The position numbers and the translations under genes were made by a program. Of a stretch of 64,000 bases of DNA, positions 1 to 10,213 are shown in pieces. Position 1 is the stretch's first letter, and every line of letters starts with the position of its first letter. The notes under the pieces were generated by a model that made no database searches, had not been told where the DNA came from, and was given only the letters and a program-made list of their open reading frames with translations. This DNA comes from Halopseudomonas laoshanensis (GTDB lineage: Bacteria > Pseudomonadota > Gammaproteobacteria > Pseudomonadales > Pseudomonadaceae): contig NZ_QOVF01000007.1 in the NCBI RefSeq assembly GCF_008365385.1, positions 1 to 64,000 on the forward strand. Direction: 5' to 3'.

Positions 1-99
1 CTACAACTGGCTGAGACCACATCAATTCAATGATGGTTTAGCACCTGCCAGGGCAGAGGAAAAACTTTATCCACTGTCCGGAATCAGTTGACCACTACA
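1..99. mobile_element. Right end of an IS3-family insertion sequence (partial)
   Basis: The transposase stop codon is followed at once by a short stretch ending ...CACTACA at 99. Read from the other strand this begins TGTAGTGG, which is plausible as an IS3-type terminal inverted repeat. The exact boundary and any target duplication cannot be verified because the other end is outside the window. The IS may sit inside the Tn7-like element or beyond its far end. Confidence 0.5.
2..91 (+). CDS. IS3-family transposase (OrfB), C-terminal end only
   Basis: Reading from base 2, the frame gives YNWLRPHQFNDGLAP...EEKL..LSGIS and stops with TGA at 89-91. This tail (a tyrosine-asparagine-tryptophan-leucine run, then P.A..A.EKL) is the usual C-terminus of the DDE integrase subunit of IS3-family insertion sequences, after the catalytic glutamate. 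Only 29 residues are in the window; the catalytic core lies to the left. It says nothing about whether the IS is intact. The identification rests on remembered family sequence, not on a search. Confidence 0.75.
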   Translation, partial: YNWLRPHQFNDGLAPARAEEKLYPLSGIS

Positions 100-325
100 A
101 TCCGCGAAAGTACCCGATTCACTGAGCTAGGTTCCCCCTCTTTAGCGAAAAGCGAACCAACGAAAGGTTTCCCCTTCTGCATATGCTTGACGCGGCGGGA
201 AATTCTTTGCCCGATTGTCATAGCAAAACTCTTATCTGGGCGGAAACTGCCTCCTCAATCAATGCGCGGGGATGGCCCGCCTCTGGCGGAAACGATCGCG
301 AGTTCCGAAGCCCAATGCGACCTGT

Positions 326-589
326 CTAGCTCCCACTGTCGCCACCGCTTCCAAACCTCGGATGGTAGATCGCCATAAAGAGATCCCTCGCCTTGTCATC
401 ATGCTGTTCACTAAACAAATAATCTTCCAGCTGCCCGACTCTCAGCACATCTTCGGCAGAGGGATAGTGGCGCAGCAGACGCTTTGCTTCCCTCTTAATT
501 TCCTCCGGCATGCATGGATTCCGAACTAATTCCTGTAGGAATTCTCCGGTTTGCTTGACGCTGCGACTACGTTCACTTGGCAAGGTCAT
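326..589 (-). CDS. BPSL0761-family small protein
   Basis: This 87-aa protein starts MTLPSERSRSVKQTGEFLQEL and continues with a MPEEIKREAKRLLRHYP stretch. That layout (TLP.ER.R.V.QT.EFL.EL...P..I...A..LLRHYP) is what I know as the BPSL0761 family, uncharacterised small soluble proteins common in Pseudomonas and Burkholderia. No catalytic or metal-binding motif is visible. It lies 75 bp downstream of tniQ on the same strand, so it may be the last gene of the transposition operon or the first cargo gene. Its function is unknown. Confidence 0.7.
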   Translation of the reverse strand: MTLPSERSRSVKQTGEFLQELVRNPCMPEEIKREAKRLLRHYPSAEDVLRVGQLEDYLFSEQHDDKARDLFMAIYHPRFGSGGDSGS

Positions 590-664
590 ACGGACTCCTT
601 TTTTAGCTCGGACCCTTATGCCAGAGCGATTATTGTTCCGGTAATAATTTTCAATAATTGGGGC

Positions 665-1939
665 TCAGCCGTGTAGCGCCGAATATGCGTCCTGGATCGC
701 GTTCTTCAGCACCCATTTGGGGAGGCCAGTTACGCTTCGTAGCTGTCGATATGCCTGCTTACGAGAAAGCGAGCAACCTCCTGTCAATTCGTCGGCGAAA
801 TGCGCAACTGCTGCGTTTCGGGCGGTCAACAGCATCCTTTCTCTTTCTTTCCTTAACAAGTCCCTCCTGACGGCTCGCAGCCTCGCTACAATCGGAGCAT
901 ACCGATACTCGAGATAGCCGACCGAGACCCATAACCGACTTGCTAATTCTGGAATGGTTGGAGGCAACGCTTCGCTCGCTAGCGCCCGCTTCAATGCACG
1001 AAGAATCCTAGGGTGGTCGGTTTGGCTCCTTCGGCGCGTGAGCATGAAGCTTGGCTTTAGCTCGCATACCCAGGCAGCACTCAAAATCCCTGAACAGAGA
1101 TGCGCTTCCCCAGCCAGCAAAGGGAAGAGAGGGATCCCGAGCATATATGCGAAGCGCCTAGCGCTCTGGAAACTCATCTTTGTTTCTGAATGCAAAGCAC
1201 TGAGCAGCACGTCTCGTGATAGAAGGTCATATAGCTCCTGCTCCATGTCATATCTCCAGTAGTGATCGAAGATCTTTTCCAAGGAGATTCGTGGCCCTGA
1301 ATCCGGCAAACTATTCGGGCGACAAGTCGCCAGGTCGATGAAAAGCTGGATGACGTCGTGATCCTCTCGATCAAAATTGGTACCGCAGCTTAAGGCGGGT
1401 CGAGACACGGCATGCGCCCAGAGCGAGACGCCACAGAGCTGGCAATGATCCAGAGGCCATTGCTTTCGATAGGTTTCCTGCGGTTCAGCACAGGAAGGGC
1501 ATGTTTGTTCAAAAGGGGTTTTGTGAGTCGGGCAAGCTACAACGGAAGCCATATGCCATAGGAGCTTGAAATAGGGAGGGATACCAAACGTAGCCATTTC
1601 AGAAAAGCAATGGGGGCACCAACGGAACCCAGCGATGACTTCGTCCCCAGAAAGGCTCAATGGCCCGTTCATAAACCACAAAGTACCCTCCGTTAGAGTT
1701 ACAGACGCAGCCGACTCAAACGCTGCCACCAAAGCTGTCGTCGCCAAACTTGGCCTGACGAGTTCTTGAGGTTTCCTGTAAAAGAACATCGGTTTACGCT
1801 CCCCGTCTGTGCGAGTCACGTAGCGAATAATTTCTCCTACATAAACGCCATGCTCTAGAGCTGTACGATGCACATAAGAAGCGAACGATTCGACATCCGG
1901 GGAGCCGACGCCCTCCAAAGCCATTCGAAACAAGCTCAT
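665..1939 (-). CDS. tniQ: TniQ/TnsD-type target-selection protein
   Basis: 424 aa. TniQ/TnsD proteins recognise the attachment site (or a guide complex) and recruit TnsC and the transposase. The N-terminal half carries the expected zinc-binding pattern: RWCPHC at about 128-133, ACPTHKTPFEQTCPSC at about 155-170 and a DHCQLC pair near 184-189. The C-terminal half is helical and basic (RRDLLRKERERM) with HTH-like segments, consistent with DNA recognition by a TnsD-like rather than a short TniQ protein. The ATG overlaps the tnsC stop as ATGA, indicating translational coupling. As the only TniQ-family gene in view, it would decide the insertion site, here just behind an RND pump gene. Confidence 0.88.
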   Translation of the reverse strand: MSLFRMALEGVGSPDVESFASYVHRTALEHGVYVGEIIRYVTRTDGERKPMFFYRKPQELVRPSLATTALVAAFESAASVTLTEGTLWFMNGPLSLSGDEVIAGFRWCPHCFSEMATFGIPPYFKLLWHMASVVACPTHKTPFEQTCPSCAEPQETYRKQWPLDHCQLCGVSLWAHAVSRPALSCGTNFDREDHDVIQLFIDLATCRPNSLPDSGPRISLEKIFDHYWRYDMEQELYDLLSRDVLLSALHSETKMSFQSARRFAYMLGIPLFPLLAGEAHLCSGILSAAWVCELKPSFMLTRRRSQTDHPRILRALKRALASEALPPTIPELASRLWVSVGYLEYRYAPIVARLRAVRRDLLRKERERMLLTARNAAVAHFADELTGGCSLSRKQAYRQLRSVTGLPKWVLKNAIQDAYSALHG

Positions 1940-2994
1940 ACCGCACCCCCGCCGCCAGATCGGTTTCCCTTTTCGTAGCGTTTAGGGTTGCGATTGAATG
2001 GCTTCCCTACAGGTTTTTTTGGCGCCGCGGGACTGCTGGTGACAATTTTTGAAGGACTGCGAGGCGAGCTGTAGAGAAGTCTTTCGCCCTCGGCTATTTC
2101 CTTTGAGATTTCAAGCAAATCCGAATCAGACATCATGGTTTGTTCGAGCAACCGCAGATCTAACTGGCAGTCGTTGAGATGCGCCAGCGTCAACGCATGC
2201 TTCAACCAGCTTTTTAGTAAACCAATGCACCCGCACGTTCGCTCGTGCAAATATTGGGTGTGCGATACGAGCAAATTTGATAGCACACTGTCGCCCATCG
2301 CTTGTTCGAAAGCCCGGCAGATTTTCGCAAATTCTAATATCTCTTCTTCTGCTGCCCCGTAGCGTGAGAGGTGGATTTGTTTTTTTCTCCCAAGCATGTG
2401 CGGCGAGTTCCGCAACACTTCCAAGATGGGATATGCCCCGACAACCACCAGAACGAGACCAGCAGTCTGTGCCAGGCATTTCCACGAATCCATGACGGCG
2501 CAGGGAGCCTGGCTTTGCTTGCTGGCGTATCGGACATGCTGTGCTTCATCAATGAATAAGTATCGTACGCCACGATGTTTTAAAGCCCGTTCTAGCGCTT
2601 GCCTGAGTATGCTTTCAGTCGAACGCTCAATCTTGTTGGCGGCGGTTAAGGTTAGGGCGTCGTCTCCGTCCATGCTCAGCATCGGATGCCGCACCGCTTC
2701 TAACAATCGCAGAGTGAACGCTTTTGTAGAAAAGGCGCCATTGGGTCCGGCGTTTACTGCTTCCACGCATATCACCGGCAGCAGGCCAGTCTCGGTGAAA
2801 GCGTTTCCATTCTCAAGCTGCCGTCTCAGCTCGTGAATCAGCCTAGACTTTCCTGCTCTAGAAGGCCCGACAATACAGACGACGTCACCTGCACTGGCCA
2901 TGGTAAGAACGGCGAACGCTTCTTTAAAAGCGTTGGTCCATTGCCTGTGGCTAATTTTCATTTCCAGAACATTACCAGCGGGAGGCCTAGTCAT
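1936..2994 (-). CDS. tnsC: TnsC-like AAA+ ATPase, transposition regulator
   Basis: An AAA+ ATPase that links the target selector (TniQ) to the transposase. The protein shows a Walker A motif, IVGPSRAGKSRLIHEL, near residues 42-57 and a Walker B region, RYLFIDEAQHVRYA, near 145-158. The C-terminus is rich in Lys, Arg and Gly (KPVGKPFNRNPKRYEKG), as expected for a nucleic-acid- or partner-binding tail. I chose the internal ATG at 2994 (MTRPPAG...). It has a GGAG eight bases upstream and overlaps the tnsAB stop by 8 bp, whereas the longer frame to 3030 would overlap by 44 bp. It lies between tnsAB and tniQ. Confidence 0.88.
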   Translation of the reverse strand: MTRPPAGNVLEMKISHRQWTNAFKEAFAVLTMASAGDVVCIVGPSRAGKSRLIHELRRQLENGNAFTETGLLPVICVEAVNAGPNGAFSTKAFTLRLLEAVRHPMLSMDGDDALTLTAANKIERSTESILRQALERALKHRGVRYLFIDEAQHVRYASKQSQAPCAVMDSWKCLAQTAGLVLVVVGAYPILEVLRNSPHMLGRKKQIHLSRYGAAEEEILEFAKICRAFEQAMGDSVLSNLLVSHTQYLHERTCGCIGLLKSWLKHALTLAHLNDCQLDLRLLEQTMMSDSDLLEISKEIAEGERLLYSSPRSPSKIVTSSPAAPKKPVGKPFNRNPKRYEKGNRSGGGGAV

Positions 2995-5389
2995 AGGAAG
3001 CACTCCAGCTATCAACCTCAAGATCGTCAATCGACTCGGAAAGCAGGCTGTCCAGGTCTAGGGGTGCGTCCTCGTGTTGCTCAAAATCGACGCTAACTGC
3101 TGGCTCAACCGGAGCGCCGACATCTACGGAATATGAGCGAATAATTCGACAGAGGTCTTCGTCGTCCATCATTCGTATTTTGTTCTTAAGCCCATAGGTC
3201 TCGAGTTTGACTAGTCCCTCGCCTAGCTGCTGGGACCCGGATTTGACGTTGTATACTCGCATTCCGGTGCTTTCACAGGTAACCCACCGTTGGTTAATGC
3301 ACGCATACACTACGTGTGGGTTTTCGGGGTCCAGCCTAACCTGGAGAGAGGACTTTCTTCCGCGGACAGATGCTAGCTCAGGTGCGTAATACCAATCGGT
3401 CCCTACATGAATCCCACGTGTCTGATCGACCTTGAAAGCTTTGTAATCCACCGCCGTCATCATCATGAACTCAAGGTCATAGTTGATCTCGCGCGCAACG
3501 AACGGGTACAAGGCTTGGCGGCGCTTGAATTCTGTGTCCGCTGCGACAAGCTCACCGCCTCTGAGCTTCCCGTTCCTCCAATTGCAGAAAGCCTTTAGCT
3601 CTTCAAATGCCCGAGCTGGAAACATAATGGCTCGCTTCTTTGGCGCACATTTACCGTCAACGCTCCTGGCCTCCTTGTAGTCAGCTAGATTCCCGGGACG
3701 CTGCGACAACCATTGTTGTTTGAATTCGCCGAAGAACCGCTCAACCTGAGAGCCAAAACGCGGATGCGAAGCTGGCCTCAGCGTGTAAGTAATTCCGTAG
3801 TGAGCCGTGAGAGATGCCATGTACGTCGAGCGGAATTCAGCACCTCGGTCAACTATAACCTCGGCCGGTAGGCGCCGGTGTAGCCGAACGCACTCCCGGA
3901 AAATCTTGCTAACGGCACGAGAGGAAGGAGAAAGAAACGAGATGGTTATCGCGAGTACGTAAGAACTGTAGAGATCGATCATGGCAGTAACCCAAGGCCG
4001 CTCCACATACACTGTGCCGTCGGACGAGTAGACGACGACATAAATGTCTGCAAGGTAGTGGTCTATGGCGGCACGCTCCCAGGGCAAGCGGGAACGCAAA
4101 ACACGCTTTTCCGGGTCGGTGGGATCTGCCACCGCGTTGGCCGCGCGTTTGCCCCCCCGCTTCAGGGCGGCGTAGCGAGCAGGCATTTGCCCCAACCTGG
4201 TATCGAACGTTTTCTGGCTTACCGGATCCAGCCCTGGATGCACCTCCGCCGCCATGACCCTGTACCTGACGTATGATCGGTACTTCGACAGCCCGGCACT
4301 ATTCGCATGTTCTCCAGACAGGTATTGCGCTAAAAACTCTTCAACTTCGCGCCCCAGCCGCCGCCTACGGTTACCGCTTTGATAATATTTTGGCAGTAGT
4401 GACTGAAACGGGGAGAGACCGCAAACGGCGCCATCCGAAACGGTCTTCTTCGATCGTCTTGTAGACCGATTTTGCGGTCCGTCTTCCAAATCGCTCAGCC
4501 TTTTCAGGGCATGTTCTGCATCCCTCAGAGTCGGCACCCTTGTTATGCTGACACTTCGCTGGCTAACCGGCCCCGTCACTTGACCCGCTTTGAGTAGTTC
4601 ACGTCCCTCTCTTAACAACCTTGAATCGCGCGCCACCACGCAGCCCTCTGCCTCCGAGAGAAGCGCACCGCGCAGATCCGCTACTATTTCACCCTCGTCA
4701 ATCAGCTTTACGAGTGGTGCGAAGGTGTCTAAACCGACTGCACGACGCAACTCGTCTAGAGTCCAAGCGAACTGCTCTTCCAAAGCCGACACCACTTTCG
4801 CTCTAACATGAGCAGGCACCGGAGGACTCGATCGCGCTTGCAGCATGAGTTCGGTATTTGCTACCTGATAGGCCATATCCGTCGAATATACGAACACCTC
4901 GAACCGGATGCCTATCTCACTGAATGCTGTTTCCGCTGGAAGATAACCAACTACACCATTGGACCGGCGAACCCAGTCCGAAGGATAGCGACTTACAAGC
5001 TCATCGATGCTTTCAGAAGTCTTAACCTCCACGACTAACGGGCCATCCGTAGTCAGCAGCAGGAAGTCCGGATTGTACTGGCATCGGATTTTCCGGCCGT
5101 TCTTATCATGCCGCTCAACTTTTCTCGGCTCCGGCTGGTCCCAAAGCTCCAATACGCGGCTGTCATACTCGCTTAGAATGAAAAAGGCCGTTTCCGCCGA
5201 TCGACTCTCTATCGAAACGGATCGATTAATCTTGGACGAAACCCTCCAACTTACGAGGTTGGATATAGCGTGAGTCCCCACCATTCGTGAAGCTTCGGAT
5301 TCGCGCGTATTTTGGATGTACTGTTTTGCGTTTCTCGACAGGTTAAAGCTAATGCTCTGGTAGTGAAGCATCTCTATTTCTGTAAGCAT
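2987..5389 (-). CDS. tnsAB: TnsA-TnsB fusion transposase
   Basis: 800 aa joining the two Tn7 cleavage subunits. Residues about 60-190 form a TnsA-type PD-(D/E)xK endonuclease: a conserved glutamate region, then QYNPDFLLLTTDG and PLVVEVKTSES, giving the D...E.K signature. TnsA nicks the 5' ends of the element. From about residue 340 the protein is a TnsB DDE integrase. It has YLADIYVVVYSSDGTVYVERPWV with the first acidic residue, IVDRGAEFRS with the second, and SQVERFFGEFKQQW with the catalytic glutamate. A Mu-transposase-like C-terminal beta domain follows. The start is preceded by a strong GGGGGAG Shine-Dalgarno. Fused TnsAB occurs in several Tn7-like branches and CRISPR-associated transposons, so fusion alone does not assign the branch. 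All catalytic positions look intact. Confidence 0.92.
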   Translation of the reverse strand: MLTEIEMLHYQSISFNLSRNAKQYIQNTRESEASRMVGTHAISNLVSWRVSSKINRSVSIESRSAETAFFILSEYDSRVLELWDQPEPRKVERHDKNGRKIRCQYNPDFLLLTTDGPLVVEVKTSESIDELVSRYPSDWVRRSNGVVGYLPAETAFSEIGIRFEVFVYSTDMAYQVANTELMLQARSSPPVPAHVRAKVVSALEEQFAWTLDELRRAVGLDTFAPLVKLIDEGEIVADLRGALLSEAEGCVVARDSRLLREGRELLKAGQVTGPVSQRSVSITRVPTLRDAEHALKRLSDLEDGPQNRSTRRSKKTVSDGAVCGLSPFQSLLPKYYQSGNRRRRLGREVEEFLAQYLSGEHANSAGLSKYRSYVRYRVMAAEVHPGLDPVSQKTFDTRLGQMPARYAALKRGGKRAANAVADPTDPEKRVLRSRLPWERAAIDHYLADIYVVVYSSDGTVYVERPWVTAMIDLYSSYVLAITISFLSPSSRAVSKIFRECVRLHRRLPAEVIVDRGAEFRSTYMASLTAHYGITYTLRPASHPRFGSQVERFFGEFKQQWLSQRPGNLADYKEARSVDGKCAPKKRAIMFPARAFEELKAFCNWRNGKLRGGELVAADTEFKRRQALYPFVAREINYDLEFMMMTAVDYKAFKVDQTRGIHVGTDWYYAPELASVRGRKSSLQVRLDPENPHVVYACINQRWVTCESTGMRVYNVKSGSQQLGEGLVKLETYGLKNKIRMMDDEDLCRIIRSYSVDVGAPVEPAVSVDFEQHEDAPLDLDSLLSESIDDLEVDSWSASYD

Positions 5390-5406
5390 AAAACTCCCCC
5401 TTGGAC

Positions 5407-5440
5407 GGAGGCCTCGCTAAAAGCGCACGTGCGAGCCTCC
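5407..5440. promoter_or_regulatory. Inverted repeat in the tnsAB leader
   Basis: GGAGGC(C)TCGC at 5407-5417 pairs with GCGAGCCTCC at 5431-5440, with one bulged C and a 13-base loop. It lies about 18 bp upstream of the tnsAB start, immediately before the Shine-Dalgarno. As RNA on the minus strand it would be a hairpin next to the ribosome site; as DNA it could be an operator. It lacks a U-tract on either strand, so it is not a simple terminator. Confidence 0.45.
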
Positions 5441-5466
5441 GAACCCATTTATTCGGATAGATGGGC

Positions 5467-5496
5467 TTGACGCGGCTTTAAAGAGGGAGAGATACT
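5467..5496 (+). promoter_or_regulatory. Sigma70-like promoter facing away from tnsAB
   Basis: TTGACG at 5467-5472 and GATACT at 5491-5496 are separated by 18 bp. Directly after the -10 lies a palindrome, TGTGGCTACCACA (5496-5508), covering the expected start point near 5503. No coding gene follows on this strand before a strong terminator about 60 bp away. The palindrome could be the site of the neighbouring small DNA-binding protein; that is inference. Confidence 0.5.
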
Positions 5497-5502
5497 GTGG
5501 CT

Positions 5503-5571
5503 ACCACACCGGAGCATGTCTCCTTCAAAGAGCCGAGGCCAAGCGATAGCTTGCTTCGGTTTTTTGTTTTT
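5503..5571 (+). ncRNA. Candidate small RNA antisense to the tnsAB leader
   Basis: A predicted start point near 5503 is followed by a short hairpin (GGAG...CTCC at 5511-5523), then a terminator hairpin (CCGAGGC at 5533 pairing up to GCTTCGG at 5559) with TTTTTTGTTTTT at 5560-5571. The product would be about 60-70 nt. The terminator has a U-run only in this direction, and no plus-strand gene needs it. Minus-strand transcripts entering tnsAB from the small regulator gene would run through exactly this segment. The RNA could therefore act as an antisense regulator of transposase expression, in the way RNA-OUT controls IS10. Sequence pattern only; no expression evidence. Confidence 0.45.
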
Positions 5572-5827
5572 ACGTCATACCTTCCCCCTCTTCTTCGTTT
5601 GGCTGCTCACGCAGCGAGGCTAGCCAGCGCGCAATGTCTCTGGCTAGAGCATATTTTCCTCTCCGACGCGGTATCTCAAAAATCTCCACGGGCAGCGTTT
5701 TCTGTTCGACCGCTTTTCGGAATGCGTGACGCGAAGGGTATCCGAGGCTCCGTATTAGCAAATCGCCAGAAATAAGCGGTCCACCCTCTTTCATCAAAGC
5801 GGCTTCGAGCTCTGCAGCAAGTGACAT
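5570..5827 (-). CDS. Small putative DNA-binding protein of the transposon
   Basis: 85 aa from the chosen ATG at 5827, which has an excellent AGGAGG five bases upstream; a longer frame reaches 5863 but lacks such a site. The core reads LISGDLLIRSLGYPSRHAFRKAVEQK, then VEIFEIPRRRGKYALARDIARWL. This looks like a small helix-turn-helix / winged-helix protein of the AlpA/PrtN size class: a selection helix, then a basic RRRGK wing. It lies upstream of tnsAB on the same strand and divergent from the 333-aa gene, a typical place for an autoregulatory repressor or an accessory DNA-bending factor. I do not recognise a named family with certainty. Confidence 0.6.
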   Translation of the reverse strand: MSLAAELEAALMKEGGPLISGDLLIRSLGYPSRHAFRKAVEQKTLPVEIFEIPRRRGKYALARDIARWLASLREQPNEEEGEGMT

Positions 5828-5979
5828 GAGACCCTCCTCAGCATGCGCCGGCCATACTCGCATTCTACCGACAGGCTTTAAGATGAACTAGACTGTCATT
5901 TCGCCCGCCAAATCTAATGGAAAAAATTCAAATAATGCAATTAATTCAATCACATAGATTTCCGCGCAACTAGACCGGC

Positions 5980-6981
5980 ATGCTTTTTCGAAGCCGCGCA
6001 TCCTCTTCGGATTCGCACACAAGATCCCTCCAGACTCGGACTTGGTGCGCCGCGCTCCAAGCTGCGTCACGAATCAAAAGTGGCTGTGGTTTAGAGGCTT
6101 TGATGTCAGCTTCATGCATCAAAGCCCGAGAGGACGGCACGACATCCGGATCTGGTCGGTGGCACAAATATCTGCGAGGAGAGATCTATCCTTCTAGACG
6201 TACTATTCTTCTTGTAGAAAGTCGTTTCCCAAATACTTCTTTTTGGATTGAAGCGCCGCTATGGCGGTTAATCAGCGACGATCATGTTGAAGAAGAGGTG
6301 CTCGCGAACGTGATCGTCAATGCCAGGCCTCACCTAGCGACACATATCAAGCCGCGAGACGCGTCTCTGTCTTCGCCAATAACGATCAACTCTTTGTGGA
6401 AGCAGGGCGATTTACCCGCTTTCGAAGCGCTTTTAGGCTTGATTAGGCATGCTGAACTGACCTCGGACCTGGGGCAATACGTTGAAGCATCGTGGGCTGG
6501 GCTACATGTAGCATCCTTCTTGAGTATCAGCACTCCATTGGAAGCAGTGCGGGACGAGTTCCTACAACTGTTGTGGAGAAGATTCTTTCGAACTCTTCGG
6601 GACATCTTATCGCCACTTGGCGTCGACTATCAGCTCCAAGCAGAAGCGACCCGCCTTAAACGGATCCTTGAAACAGCGACGCGAAACGGCGTAATAACCG
6701 GACGCCGCAAAGAGAAAGCTCGCTTCGCATATTGGATAGCCAAGCAAATCCATCAAGCCAAAAATGGTAGTTCGCCATGTGAGACAGACGATCTCTTGGC
6801 TCTGTACCTGCAGAAGGGAGCGGCCAAAGCCGCGCTTGGCTCCCAAACGAATTTTATTGACGCGCTTCGTTTGTTCGAATTTAGCAGTTCATTTTCGCTC
6901 AACGATGATCGTGACTTAATGGCCATGATCAAGGAAGACGGAAGACACATTTCCAATCACGCTAGGTGTCTTTCCGGCTAA
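5980..6981 (+). CDS. Uncharacterised 333-aa protein at the transposon end
   Basis: I do not recognise a characterised family. The N-terminal part has RTWCAALQAASR and GRWHKYLRGEIYPSRRTILL followed by VESRFPNTSFWIEAPLWRLI. This recalls uncharacterised Pseudomonas proteins where a GRW..Y..GE..PS...V..VE..FPG motif precedes a long helical region. The remainder is mostly helical with no transmembrane segment or obvious catalytic motif. The start is uncertain: no strong Shine-Dalgarno precedes 5980, but the motif block begins soon after it, so the true start cannot be much further in. It is transcribed toward the element terminus, divergently from the small DNA-binding gene, so it was presumably acquired with the transposon. 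Confidence 0.6.
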   Translation: MLFRSRASSSDSHTRSLQTRTWCAALQAASRIKSGCGLEALMSASCIKAREDGTTSGSGRWHKYLRGEIYPSRRTILLVESRFPNTSFWIEAPLWRLISDDHVEEEVLANVIVNARPHLATHIKPRDASLSSPITINSLWKQGDLPAFEALLGLIRHAELTSDLGQYVEASWAGLHVASFLSISTPLEAVRDEFLQLLWRRFFRTLRDILSPLGVDYQLQAEATRLKRILETATRNGVITGRRKEKARFAYWIAKQIHQAKNGSSPCETDDLLALYLQKGAAKAALGSQTNFIDALRLFEFSSSFSLNDDRDLMAMIKEDGRHISNHARCLSG

Positions 6982-7039
6982 GCCGTGACCTCTTCGGGCG
7001 ATCGATGTCGACGCCGCCCTGGCTAGGCGTCAAGAGAGA

Positions 7040-7087
7040 GGCCAAACTATGGTATTAATTTCTGGCCAGACTATGGGTGTAAGAACA
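7040..7087. repeat. Transposon terminus with two TnsB-type binding repeats
   Basis: GGCCAAACTATGG at 7040-7052 and GGCCAGACTATGG at 7064-7076 are identical except for one base and are exactly 24 bp apart. The sequence then ends ...GTAAGAACA at 7087, which is TGTTCTTAC on the minus strand. Regularly spaced short repeats ending in TGT/ACA are the organisation of Tn7-like ends. A third, poor match may lie 24 bp further in (around 7016-7028). If 7087 is the terminus, the 5-bp target duplication here would be CTATC (7088-7092). Confidence 0.75.
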
Positions 7088-7120
7088 CTATCAGCAGCAT
7101 CCTTCCCGCTTTATCGCCAC

Positions 7121-10100
7121 TCATACATCAGCCACCGCCGACTTCTTCGTACGCCTGGCCTGAAGCCATGCGCGGGTATTGTCGCCCAGCACCAGCATGC
7201 ACGGCGTAATAAACAGCGTCAGTACGGTGGCTATGGTCAGCCCACCGGCAATGGCACTGGAGAGCTGGGTCCACCATTGGGTTGACGGTGCGCCGAAGCC
7301 CAGGCTCGGCTCCAGCAGGTTCACGTTGACGGCTAGTACCATCGGCATCAGGCCCAGCACTGTGGTGATGGAGGTGAGCAACACCGGGCGCAGCCTCAGG
7401 CAGCCGGTTTCATGCGCGGCCTCGATTGCCGAGGCGCCTGCGGCCCTGATCTGGTTGTAGGTATCGATCAATACAATGTTGTTGTTCACCACAATGCCCG
7501 AAAGACCAATGATGCCCATGCCGACCATGACGATACCGAAAGGCTGGCTGTTGATCAGTAGCCCCAGCAGTACGCCCGCGGTAGAAAACACGATAGCCGA
7601 CATCACCAGCATGGCCTGATACCAGCTATTGAACTGAATCAGCAGAATCAGCAGCATGAGGAAAATTGCGGTCACGAAGGCGGTGGCGAGGAAGCTGGCA
7701 GCCTCCTGCTGATCTGCGCCCTCACCCGCCGTGTTCACACGCACCCCGGCTGGAAACTCCAGACCACTATTGAGCAGCGCATTGAGACGTTCGCCCACCT
7801 GAGCGCCATCAGCCAGATCAGACTTGATGGTTACTGCGCGGTTGCCATCGATCCGATTGATCACACTGGTTTTAGGCGCAGGCTCCACGGTGACAAAGTT
7901 ACTGATGGGCACCTGCCCCCTGGGCGTCTGCACGGTTAACCGGGTCAACTCCTCGATGGAGCGCCAGTTTTCCGGGAAACGCACACGTATATCCACTTCA
8001 TCACTGGCGTATTCCGGGCGGTACTTCGCCAGCAACAGGCCGTTGGTGACCATTTGCACGGCGTTACCCACTGTGAGCACATCGGCACCGAATCGGGCTG
8101 CTGCGGCACGATCCACGTTCACCCGCCATTCAATACCGGGAAGACTGCGGTCATCTTCGATATCGACAAAACCGCCAAGGCTGTTCATTTTCGTAACCAG
8201 GAGCTCGACCGCTTCGTCGATGGAATCCTGGTCCACTCCCGTCACCTGCAATTCGATCGGCTTACCCGCTGCCGGTCCGCCTTCCTGCTCGCGAAACTCG
8301 AGAATGATCCCGGGAATATCTTCGGTCAGAACGCGCATATCATTTAGGATCTCAGCCGCGCGGCGCCGTTCGTGCCACTCGGTGAACTGGAACTGTACGG
8401 TCCCAACGACATCCGGAGGCAGCTCACTGTTGGCAGTCGCCAGCGACCGCGCATAAAGCGCCTTGACCTCAGACAAGCCCAGCAAGCGCTGCTCTACCCG
8501 CTGCAACAACTCATCGCGCTCATATATGGATAGATCTCCCCTGGCCCGTACCAGTACCTGCGCAGACTCAGGCTCCACTGACGGAAAGAACTCTACCCCG
8601 TGGTTGAAGCTGCCATAGGCGATAAAAATGACCACCATCGCCAACAGCATGCCGACAAAGGTCTTGCCCGGCCGCCGCAGAAACTTCGCCAAAAGGTTGC
8701 CATAGGCTTTGCCCGCACGGCTGACACCTGCGTCCGTCACCGCTGGCTTGTGCCGTTTGAGTGAGCCCAGCACCGGCAGGAATATCAGCGCCATGACCAG
8801 CGAGGCAAGCAGCGCGATAATCACGGTCGCAGGCAGGTAGCGCATGAATTCGCCGACCATCCCGGGCCAGAACAGCAAAGGCCCGAACACCACAATGGTG
8901 GTGGCGGTGGAGGCGATAATCGGCCAGGCCATACGCTCTGCAGCGTGGCCCCAGGCCTGCCGGGGGGATTGACCTTCGGCGATATTCCGGTCAGCCAGCT
9001 CGCTGACTACGATGGCTCCATCCACCAGCATGCCGGCCACCAGAATCAGCGCAAACAGCACGATCACATTCATGGTGAAACCGATCAGATAAATCACCAG
9101 AATCGCCGCGAGAAAGGCGCCGGGAATGGTAATACCCACGAGCAGCGCGGAACGCACGCCCATGGTGGCGACAATCAGAATCAGCACTAGCACTACGGCG
9201 GTCAGTACGTTGTTCAGCAGATCAGACAACATGCTTTCGACTTGCGTGGACTCGTCCATGATGTAGTGCACTTCCAGGCCCTCTGGAAAGTACTCCTTGG
9301 CTTCATCGATCAATGCGCGGGTCTGTTCGGTAGTCGAGATAATGTTCGCGCCAGCGCGCTTTTTGACTTCCAGCACCATGGCCGGTTGTCCGTTAATCCG
9401 GGCAAAGCCCAACGGGTCCTTGAAGCTACGGTTGAGAGTAGCCACGTCAGCAAAGGTCACCACCGTATCGCCATCAACCTTGACCGGCATATTCAACATG
9501 TCGTCCAGGTCCTCGACCACGCCCGGCACCTTGATTGACATGCGGCCCTCACCGGTATCCAAGCTGCCAGCCGCCACCAGGCGGTTGTTGTTGGACACCA
9601 GGTTGAACAGCTCCATATAGTCCAGGCCATAGGTTTCGAGGGCCTGGGGGTCAACCACGATCTCGAGCAGATCTTCCCGGTCGCCGCCGATTTCCACTTC
9701 CAGCACTTCCGGAATACCTTCGATTTCTTCCTGCAGCTGGCGCGCAATAAATACCAACTCACTCTGCGAAACCGGTCCCGCCAAACCCACAGACATCACC
9801 GGAAACAGCGCAACGTTGATTTCGTTTACGGTGGGCTCGTCGGCTTCGCTGGGCAGCTTGCTGCGCGCTGCATCGACCTTCTCCCGCACATCGGTCAGTG
9901 CCTTGTCAGCGTCGAAACCGGCGTCGAATTCCAGCATCACTGACGCGTGGCCTTCGCTGGAGACCGAGGTCATCTTCTTGACCCCTTCCAATGAGCGCAA
10001 CTCATGCTCCATCGGCCTTACCAGCAGGCGCTCGGCATCTTCCGGACTGATACCGTCCAGTGTCAGTGACACGTACATCATCGGGATGGCGACGTCGGGA

Positions 10101-10213
10101 TTGGCTTCCTTGGGGATGGCGTTATAGGCAACCAGCCCGCCGATGAACAGAAATACCAACAAGGTAATCACAGCGCGGCTGCGATCAATCGCGGCGTGGA
10201 TCACTCTACTCAT
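7121..10213 (-). CDS. RND efflux pump, inner-membrane transporter (second of two)
   Basis: 1030 aa, the normal length for a proton-driven RND exporter. It has the N-terminal helix and IPKEANPDVAIP entry typical of the hydrophobic/amphiphilic exporter family, two large periplasmic loops and 12 membrane segments. The TM4 proton-relay region reads AGMLVDGAIVVSELADRN, so one of the two adjacent aspartates of AcrB (DD) is a glycine here. This single-Asp form also occurs in other RND subfamilies. The start ATG overlaps the stop of the adaptor gene by 4 bp. The stop lies about 33 bp from the transposon end. Substrate unknown; it probably shares the outer-membrane channel encoded upstream. Confidence 0.9.
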   Translation of the reverse strand: MSRVIHAAIDRSRAVITLLVFLFIGGLVAYNAIPKEANPDVAIPMMYVSLTLDGISPEDAERLLVRPMEHELRSLEGVKKMTSVSSEGHASVMLEFDAGFDADKALTDVREKVDAARSKLPSEADEPTVNEINVALFPVMSVGLAGPVSQSELVFIARQLQEEIEGIPEVLEVEIGGDREDLLEIVVDPQALETYGLDYMELFNLVSNNNRLVAAGSLDTGEGRMSIKVPGVVEDLDDMLNMPVKVDGDTVVTFADVATLNRSFKDPLGFARINGQPAMVLEVKKRAGANIISTTEQTRALIDEAKEYFPEGLEVHYIMDESTQVESMLSDLLNNVLTAVVLVLILIVATMGVRSALLVGITIPGAFLAAILVIYLIGFTMNVIVLFALILVAGMLVDGAIVVSELADRNIAEGQSPRQAWGHAAERMAWPIIASTATTIVVFGPLLFWPGMVGEFMRYLPATVIIALLASLVMALIFLPVLGSLKRHKPAVTDAGVSRAGKAYGNLLAKFLRRPGKTFVGMLLAMVVIFIAYGSFNHGVEFFPSVEPESAQVLVRARGDLSIYERDELLQRVEQRLLGLSEVKALYARSLATANSELPPDVVGTVQFQFTEWHERRRAAEILNDMRVLTEDIPGIILEFREQEGGPAAGKPIELQVTGVDQDSIDEAVELLVTKMNSLGGFVDIEDDRSLPGIEWRVNVDRAAAARFGADVLTVGNAVQMVTNGLLLAKYRPEYASDEVDIRVRFPENWRSIEELTRLTVQTPRGQVPISNFVTVEPAPKTSVINRIDGNRAVTIKSDLADGAQVGERLNALLNSGLEFPAGVRVNTAGEGADQQEAASFLATAFVTAIFLMLLILLIQFNSWYQAMLVMSAIVFSTAGVLLGLLINSQPFGIVMVGMGIIGLSGIVVNNNIVLIDTYNQIRAAGASAIEAAHETGCLRLRPVLLTSITTVLGLMPMVLAVNVNLLEPSLGFGAPSTQWWTQLSSAIAGGLTIATVLTLFITPCMLVLGDNTRAWLQARRTKKSAVADV

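Follow-up and report, generated by a model that had tools for sequence, protein, structure and literature searches.

A 64,000-nucleotide stretch of Halopseudomonas laoshanensis DNA (hereafter the window; contig NZ_QOVF01000007.1, positions 1 to 64,000) begins with the transposition genes and one end of a Tn7-like transposon, and the question raised by this locus is which sequence the element recognises when it inserts. The transposon ends close to the stop codon of a resistance-nodulation-division (RND) efflux pump gene, and the original prediction, made from the window alone, was that the 3' end of this gene serves as the attachment site. Comparison with related insertions led to a different reading, which we consider very probable: a large Tn7-like cut-and-paste transposon is guided by its TniQ protein to a position behind a tRNA gene with the anticodon CAU, where it duplicates 4 bp of its target, and the pump gene just happens to be its neighbour at the other end. 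In this mechanism, TniQ would bind the CAU tRNA gene (probably tRNA-Ile2) via helix-turn-helix modules at its C-terminus, recruit TnsC and direct the fused TnsAB transposase. Insertion would occur in a single orientation, 22–25 bp behind the CCA end of the tRNA, and the end turned towards the tRNA would be the one in which two TnsB-like sites lie close together in inverted orientation. The tRNA would stay intact, and 4 bp of the target would be duplicated.

The transposition genes lie on the minus strand of the window and encode a TniQ/TnsD-like target selector of 424 aa (665..1939; Pfam TniQ 51 bits, cut-off 27), TnsC, a TniB-like AAA+ ATPase of 364 aa (1936..3030; Pfam TniB 43 and AAA_22 48 bits) with Walker A at residue 55 and Walker B at residue 158, and a TnsA–TnsB fusion transposase of 800 aa (2987..5389). 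All three predicted genes are thus present, as judged by their reading frames, Pfam matches and conserved residues, and a TnsB-type DDE transposase is accompanied by TnsC and TniQ, as in Tn7-like transposons. In the fusion protein, the Pfam integrase core scored 32.6 bits, which equals its cut-off, the Mu C-terminal domain 18.8 bits, below its cut-off of 21.7, and the TnsA part gave a weak match to the NCBIfam TnsA-like family (23 bits, cut-off 110). The TnsA-type residues D108, E121 and K123 and the TnsB-type residues D443/D448, D514 and E550, which we take to be catalytic, are invariant across six aligned TnsAB proteins (that of the window included), and a profile built from these six matched the chain named "Integrase" of PDB entry 9bw1 with an E-value of 1.5e-77. 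TnsAB would, from these features, be expected to act as a transposase.

The end of the element contained in the window (the right end) carries two TnsB-like sites on the minus strand, site 1 (CCATAGTCTGGCC; 7064..7076, 11 bp from the terminus) and site 2 (CCATAGTTTGGCC; 7040..7052), the starts of which are 24 bp apart, and it terminates on the plus strand with the ACA of a TGT/ACA end at 7085..7087. With up to two mismatches, the two-site pattern occurs once in the 4.1-Mb draft genome from which the window derives (G000), and the reversed pattern does not occur in it. The repeated sites are candidates for binding by TnsB. Terminus and genes together bear out the prediction of a Tn7-like transposon end and a fused TnsAB, with the boundary at 7087 and the repeats spaced by 24 bp. 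The pump gene follows on the minus strand (7121..10213; ACR_tran 583 bits), with its stop codon at 7121–7123, and the coordinates confirm that 33 bp separate this codon from the terminus.

Since the window starts at position 1 of contig C14, the remaining part of the element must be located elsewhere. A search of the G000 genome with the right-end sequence missed the left end, but the 13-base site pattern found it, yielding a second place at C9:861445. The left terminus, TGT, lies at C9:861434. A tRNA gene (C9:861333–861409) with the anticodon CAU precedes it by 24 bp, and the left end carries one site followed, 18 bp on, by a second, inverted site. Both ends of the element share the type of site and have TGT at an equal offset of 11 bp. 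The CTAT adjoining the right terminus (7088..7091) recurs directly ahead of the left end; a 5-bp repeat, CTATC, had been expected, and its first four bases are indeed shared while the fifth is not, since CCCTAT precedes the other end.

A complete relative of the element is found in G165, a genome of the same genus, on a single contig (4260750–4333354, 72.6 kb) with the tRNA on the left and the pump on the right, the right end having the same form as in the window. An early left-end candidate near position 4309500 of G165 was dropped, as it lies inside an apparent coding gene. Four pieces of C9 between the left end and the end of the contig match the G165 element at 98.7–99.95% identity, with approximately 11 kb present only in G000 and approximately 1.7 kb only in G165, and positions 97–5834 of the window continue this match (98.8%). 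The window opens (positions 1–99) with the margin of an IS3-like insertion sequence, for which a matching inverted end is found at C9:930817–930914, 98 bp before the end of C9. The ends on C9 and C14 were joined because of the shared CTAT, the 98.7–99.95% match to the single-contig element and the insertion sequence ends at both edges, which gives an element of at least 76.6 kb (C9:861434–930914 plus window 1–7087), interrupted at the insertion sequence. About 5.6 kb of the G165 element between the matches are not found at the edges of the two G000 contigs (C9, C14), suggesting a deletion linked to the insertion sequence or an unplaced contig.

Related insertions were sought with TnsAB in samples of genomes from the family (198), order (390) and class (369), drawn from larger groups and overlapping in G000. 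Matches were obtained in nine of the family genomes (full length only in G000, G165 and G173), in six of the order genomes and in two of the class genomes, one of the latter being G000. Near full-length TnsAB was encoded at ten loci in nine genomes: G000, G165, G173, G262, UBA7310 (G323/L010), G388 (two, G388_C27 and G388_C31), G486, G490 and G685. Four cyanobacterial loci (29–37%), plasmid matches and six partial family matches (26–31%) were excluded from the site comparison. The matching plasmid records numbered 730, all below 60% identity, and 29 of the 30 matches listed (24–30%) were cyanobacterial; no relatives were confirmed in viral contigs. The two-site pattern matched 11 of 14 genomes, and nine places, one in each of nine genomes, were taken as right ends and six others as chance occurrences.

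At nine of the ten near full-length loci, the element has one end 22–25 bp behind a CAU tRNA, and in six of these (G165, UBA7310, G262, G486, G388_C31 and G685) a single contig carries tnsAB together with the two ends. Together with two elements lacking TnsAB (G134 and G046), the nine make up a set of 11 elements with both ends assigned, all of which lie 22–25 bp behind the tRNA. Insertion is thus oriented and site-specific, beside a conserved gene; as judged by sequence comparison, the same set also defines the length of the flanking repeat and the variety of the far flanks described below. TGT/ACA ends were seen in nine of the 11 elements, the exceptions being G262 (TGG, TGA) and G486 (TGG). 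The G490 element lies elsewhere, between a bioB-like gene and a gene with a phosphoribosyltransferase domain. Behind the CAU tRNA of G490 there is nevertheless a sequence similar to the ends of this TnsAB element (G490:C2:26863–26939, L114; TGTG...GCATAAGTTG), 193 kb away from the element itself.

ARAGORN labels the target tRNA as tRNA-Met from its CAT anticodon. This label was rejected, since ARAGORN gives the same name to an E. coli gene annotated as tRNA-Ile, which sits behind rpoD and mug. The tRNAs of three hosts were compared with those of E. coli, and all matches listed were tRNA-Ile (10, 6 and 6 matches, at 88–87%, 80–79% and 87% identity, respectively); moreover, the gene preceding the tRNA is rpoD in G685 (by Pfam) and in UBA7310 (by inspection). 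As the E. coli matches are tRNA-Ile, rpoD precedes the gene and ARAGORN misnames the E. coli gene too, the target is most likely tRNA-Ile2(CAU). Such tRNAs decode isoleucine codons once modified. Elements of a different kind, too, have a hotspot at the CAU tRNA: in four genomes of the genus, its 3' half occurs a second time, as a 46-bp copy of the sort left by integrase islands, some 3–14 kb from the full gene (G021:C1:402703, G004:C27:51055, G066:C15:284346 and G139:C11:28781).

The C-terminus of TniQ is its most conserved stretch. Among five TniQ proteins (that of the window included), 20 of the 28 residues at 392–419 are invariant; counted in blocks of 30 residues, 20 are conserved at 391–420 and no more than 11 in every other block. 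This region is kept in G173 and G388_C31, the end sequences of which differ; G685 has a looser form of it, and G490, whose element is not at the CAU tRNA, lacks it. The structural model of TniQ has a mean predicted local distance difference test score (pLDDT) of 48, with values mostly above 70 only at about residues 311–424, and contains helix-turn-helix-like units in residues 309–423. A profile of the five proteins matched TnsD of PDB entries 8v32/9bw1, presumably PmcCAST, with an E-value of 2.1e-31, and this appears to be the nearest solved selector by sequence and, weakly, by fold. It is likely through this C-terminus that TniQ reads the tRNA gene, to which it would bind.

The lengths of the flanking repeats were compared after uniformly placing each terminus 11 bp ahead of the first site (in G388_C31, the TGTGCGG ends served instead), with G157, G058 and the decayed ends of G035, G004 and G066 kept out of the counts. 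Exact 4-bp repeats flank six of the 11 elements at the tRNA (G000 CTAT, G173 GTTC, G388_C27 TGTG, G262 CAAG, G134 AGTG and G685 AAAT) and 5-bp repeats none, while one of 110 mismatched flank pairs shared 4 bp. In its available text, PMC11406308 calls a 5-bp target-site duplication characteristic of Tn7 and all its relatives; it was treated here as a signature, not as defining the Tn7-like family, and this signature is absent from the elements at the tRNA. A 4-bp duplication thus seems unexpected for a Tn7-like element, and no recognisable record of one, or of homing to this tRNA, was found in the part of the literature that can be searched without subscription papers and supplements.

It could be argued that the duplication is truly 5 bp, as in Tn7, and seems to be 4 bp owing to a terminus misset by one base or to mutation. 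G173, G388_C27 and G134 do fit 5 bp if the target is taken to include the T of the left TGT, as do G173 and G134 if it is taken to include the last A of ACA, whereas G000, G262 and G685 fit only 4 bp under both of the one-base shifts tried, and the same procedure yields an exact 5-bp repeat for the sister element in G490, which together make this explanation unlikely. When the flanks of G685 are joined, they fold into a 13-bp stem closed by a 4-base loop and followed by a T run (-18.0 kcal/mol), like a tRNA terminator split by the element. Flanks joined at 3 or 5 bp fold almost equally well (-17.9 and -17.4), and the hairpin therefore supports the site and not the repeat length. At this locus (G685:C10:240001–283582, L145–L147), a strong hairpin in the element's own end may replace the split one behind the tRNA.

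Several observations weigh against homing to the tRNA with a 4-bp duplication. Five of the 11 (G165, UBA7310, G388_C31, G486 and G046) are not flanked by an exact 4-bp repeat: ATTT recurs in UBA7310, though 4 bp further away from the left end, the flanks of G388_C31 agree at three of four bases, and the right end of G165 has probably been exchanged, because its right 1.3 kb is approximately 59–77% like the window while the tns genes are 98–100% identical. Exact repeats were found in two of the six single-contig elements (G262 and G685), compared to four of the five whose ends were paired across contigs (G000, G173, G388_C27, G134 and G046). Among the nine TnsAB elements at the tRNA, three have ends on separate contigs that were joined by inference (G000, G173, with TniQ on the left-end contig, and G388_C27), and in G000 the bases flanking the two insertion sequence ends, in the window and at the edge of C9, differ. 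Two of the 11 elements, G134 and G046, were found via the tRNA itself. No empty site with the tRNA adjoining the pump was seen in 30 tRNA loci (30 of 31 genomes; at most 1500 bp per side, less at contig ends). Only one of five sets of joined flanks is terminator-like, those of G000, G134, G262 and G173 giving -2.7 to -9.6 kcal/mol, and the single PDB match of the TniQ model under an E-value of 0.001, 8v32, aligns with a TM-score of just 0.30.

Integration at tRNA genes is common, and the left end behind the tRNA might belong to a different element or to a tyrosine-integrase island, the second 46-bp copies of the tRNA 3' half in G021, G004, G066 and G139 being such as integrase islands leave. 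However, the two ends in G000 carry sites of one type with TGT 11 bp away in each, a 4-bp repeat is common to six of the 11 end pairs, the G000 genome contains one TniQ, and both ends lie with tnsAB on one contig in the six elements named above. A separate origin of the left end is thus very improbable.

At the far end, the neighbours of the element vary. The pump adjoins it only in G000 and G165 (33 and 39 bp after the stop codon), while the neighbour is a GGDEF/EAL gene in G173, the end of a GGDEF gene in G486 (by Pfam), a 254-aa gene without Pfam match in G262, and, by Pfam, ApbE in G134, a NicO-type nickel-transport gene in G046 and a KfrA-like gene in G388_C31. In UBA7310 and G388_C27, another left end follows 4 bp beyond the right end (left-end hairpins L087 4786 and, for G388, L082 4647); these are tandem insertions, with the newer element between the tRNA and the older one. 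G153 carries no left end, and its pump nonetheless lies approximately 5.9 kb from the tRNA, with their relative orientation unchanged; the pump's proximity is hence old. Since the far-end neighbours vary, with most related elements lying at unrelated places on the TnsAB side and no recurrence of the same pump beside independent insertions, the pump was rejected as attachment site and is taken to be a bystander. That TniQ recognises the 3' end of the pump gene, as might be thought from the shared neighbour of G000 and G165 and from prototypic Tn7, where the recognised sequence lies outside the tns-side right end (PMC11406308, available text), is hardly credible given a pump distance differing by 6 bp between these two genomes, other neighbours in the remaining elements (both of G388 included), the CAU tRNA at the opposite end in 11 of 11 and the pump already near the tRNA in G153.

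According to the accessible part of PMC11406308, the right end is by convention the one upstream of the transposition genes, and attachment sites occur on either side, closest to whichever end has the overlapping sites. Eight of the nine TnsAB elements at this site have the tRNA outside their left end. The left ends covered have two sites inverted within 31 bp (G388_C31 unscored) and right ends two direct sites 24 bp apart; in G685, the inverted pair is again on the tRNA side and the tns genes are turned round. This pattern fits the published remark, as far as its text is accessible, and extends it.

The tRNA flank was covered in 28 of 37 genomes of the genus, of which seven have intact left ends 22–26 bp behind the tRNA (G000, G165, G173, G058, G134, G046 and G157) and three decayed ones (G035, G004 and G066). 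Among these ten, TniQ and a TnsAB match occur only in G000, G165 and G173, with G157 counted as lacking a TnsAB match by assumption (it is among 169 unlisted genomes). The first 1.5 kb inwards from the right ends of G134 (L134, C44) and G046 (L135, C21) contain no tns genes, and neither genome gave a TnsAB or TniQ match; a CAP12/Pycsar-type TIR protein is encoded just inside the G046 right end. Right ends of G157 and G058 were not found within the 60 kb and 20 kb read, respectively. G134 and G046 may be non-autonomous islands moved in trans. On balance, we favour the broader view of a Tn7-like transposase lineage in which homing to tRNA(CAU) is combined with a strand-transfer stagger reduced from 5 to 4 bp, the target-facing end is set by the inverted pair of TnsB-like sites and not by gene order, and islands without TnsAB or TniQ (G134, G046 and perhaps G058 and G157) are mobilised in trans by elements of this lineage.

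TnsAB-fused elements with a tRNA-homing TnsD are known from cyanobacteria (PMC11406308 and PMC10293859, available text), and insertion downstream of tRNAs is mentioned in the accessible part of PMC8649781; islands at tRNA-Met are, in the text available of PMC6360697, not described as Tn7-like. The present element resembles PmcCAST (type I-B2) and CyCAST (type I-D), as far as these are described there, in its fused TnsAB and a selector homing to a tRNA gene, a likeness also seen in the match of the TniQ profile to TnsD of 8v32/9bw1 and of the TnsAB profile to 9bw1. It differs in that insertion occurs 22–25 bp behind the CAU tRNA instead of approximately 30–33 nt behind tRNA-Leu, as given for CyCAST in the available text of PMC10293859, and in having 4-bp instead of 5-bp repeats. 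Moreover, these systems have a TniQ–TnsD pair, whereas the G000 genome encodes one TniQ and thus not the two TniQ-family proteins of I-B2 and I-D CRISPR-associated transposons; no cas genes were found among the seven window proteins and the 10 of 45 cargo reading frames scanned. With Tn7, it shares putative TnsA and TnsB activities (by sequence), TnsC, a TniQ-domain selector, a near-fixed distance behind a conserved gene, one orientation and TGT/ACA ends with repeated sites, while TnsA is fused to TnsB, a tRNA gene replaces glmS, 4 bp replace 5 bp, and, in all TnsAB elements at the tRNA except G685, the recognised gene lies past the end opposite tnsAB.

That the element works like a tRNA-homing Tn7 relative is well supported, and among the Tn7-like elements known to combine tRNA homing with a fused TnsAB it represents a gammaproteobacterial variant, one that by its flanking sequences appears to do without a signature held common to all Tn7 relatives, the 5-bp duplication. 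Homing of this type is thereby extended to gammaproteobacteria, with a single TniQ in G000. Duplication size reflects how a transposase holds the two ends on target DNA, and a 4-bp lineage beside a 5-bp sister could expose the residues that set the stagger geometry. The set also offers natural contrasts in target choice, with the TniQ C-terminus either kept or missing, in end polarity (G685) and in possible mobilisation in trans. The locus further illustrates that reading one end alone can take a bystander gene for an attachment site.

For the cargo, 10 of the 45 open reading frames (at least 150 aa) listed on the C9 part of the element were scanned. They encode three heavy-metal-type P-type ATPases, two multicopper oxidases, two CusB/HlyD-type fusion proteins (one with a CusF domain), an outer membrane efflux protein, an RND pump and a Tn3 transposase, and these gene types indicate that the cargo is probably metal resistance.

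Two accessory proteins are encoded between tnsAB and the right end of the window, one of 97 aa (5570..5863, minus strand), with an 85-aa counterpart in G165, and one of 333 aa (5980..6981, plus strand), divergent from tnsAB; neither matched any family in Pfam, NCBIfam or PADLOC. The model of the 333-aa protein is mostly helical and of low confidence (mean pLDDT 61). Its counterparts in G165, G173 and UBA7310 (58%, 40% and 19% identity, respectively) always sit between tnsAB and the right end. The tns genes of G165 reach their 98–100% DNA identity to the window in each 200-bp block, and the segment G165:C1:4332058–4333354, which corresponds to window positions 5834–7087 and includes the gene of the 333-aa protein, only approximately 59–77% on the same scale. 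The right-end region of G165 is thus a mosaic, which may have arisen when elements occupying one site exchanged sequence.

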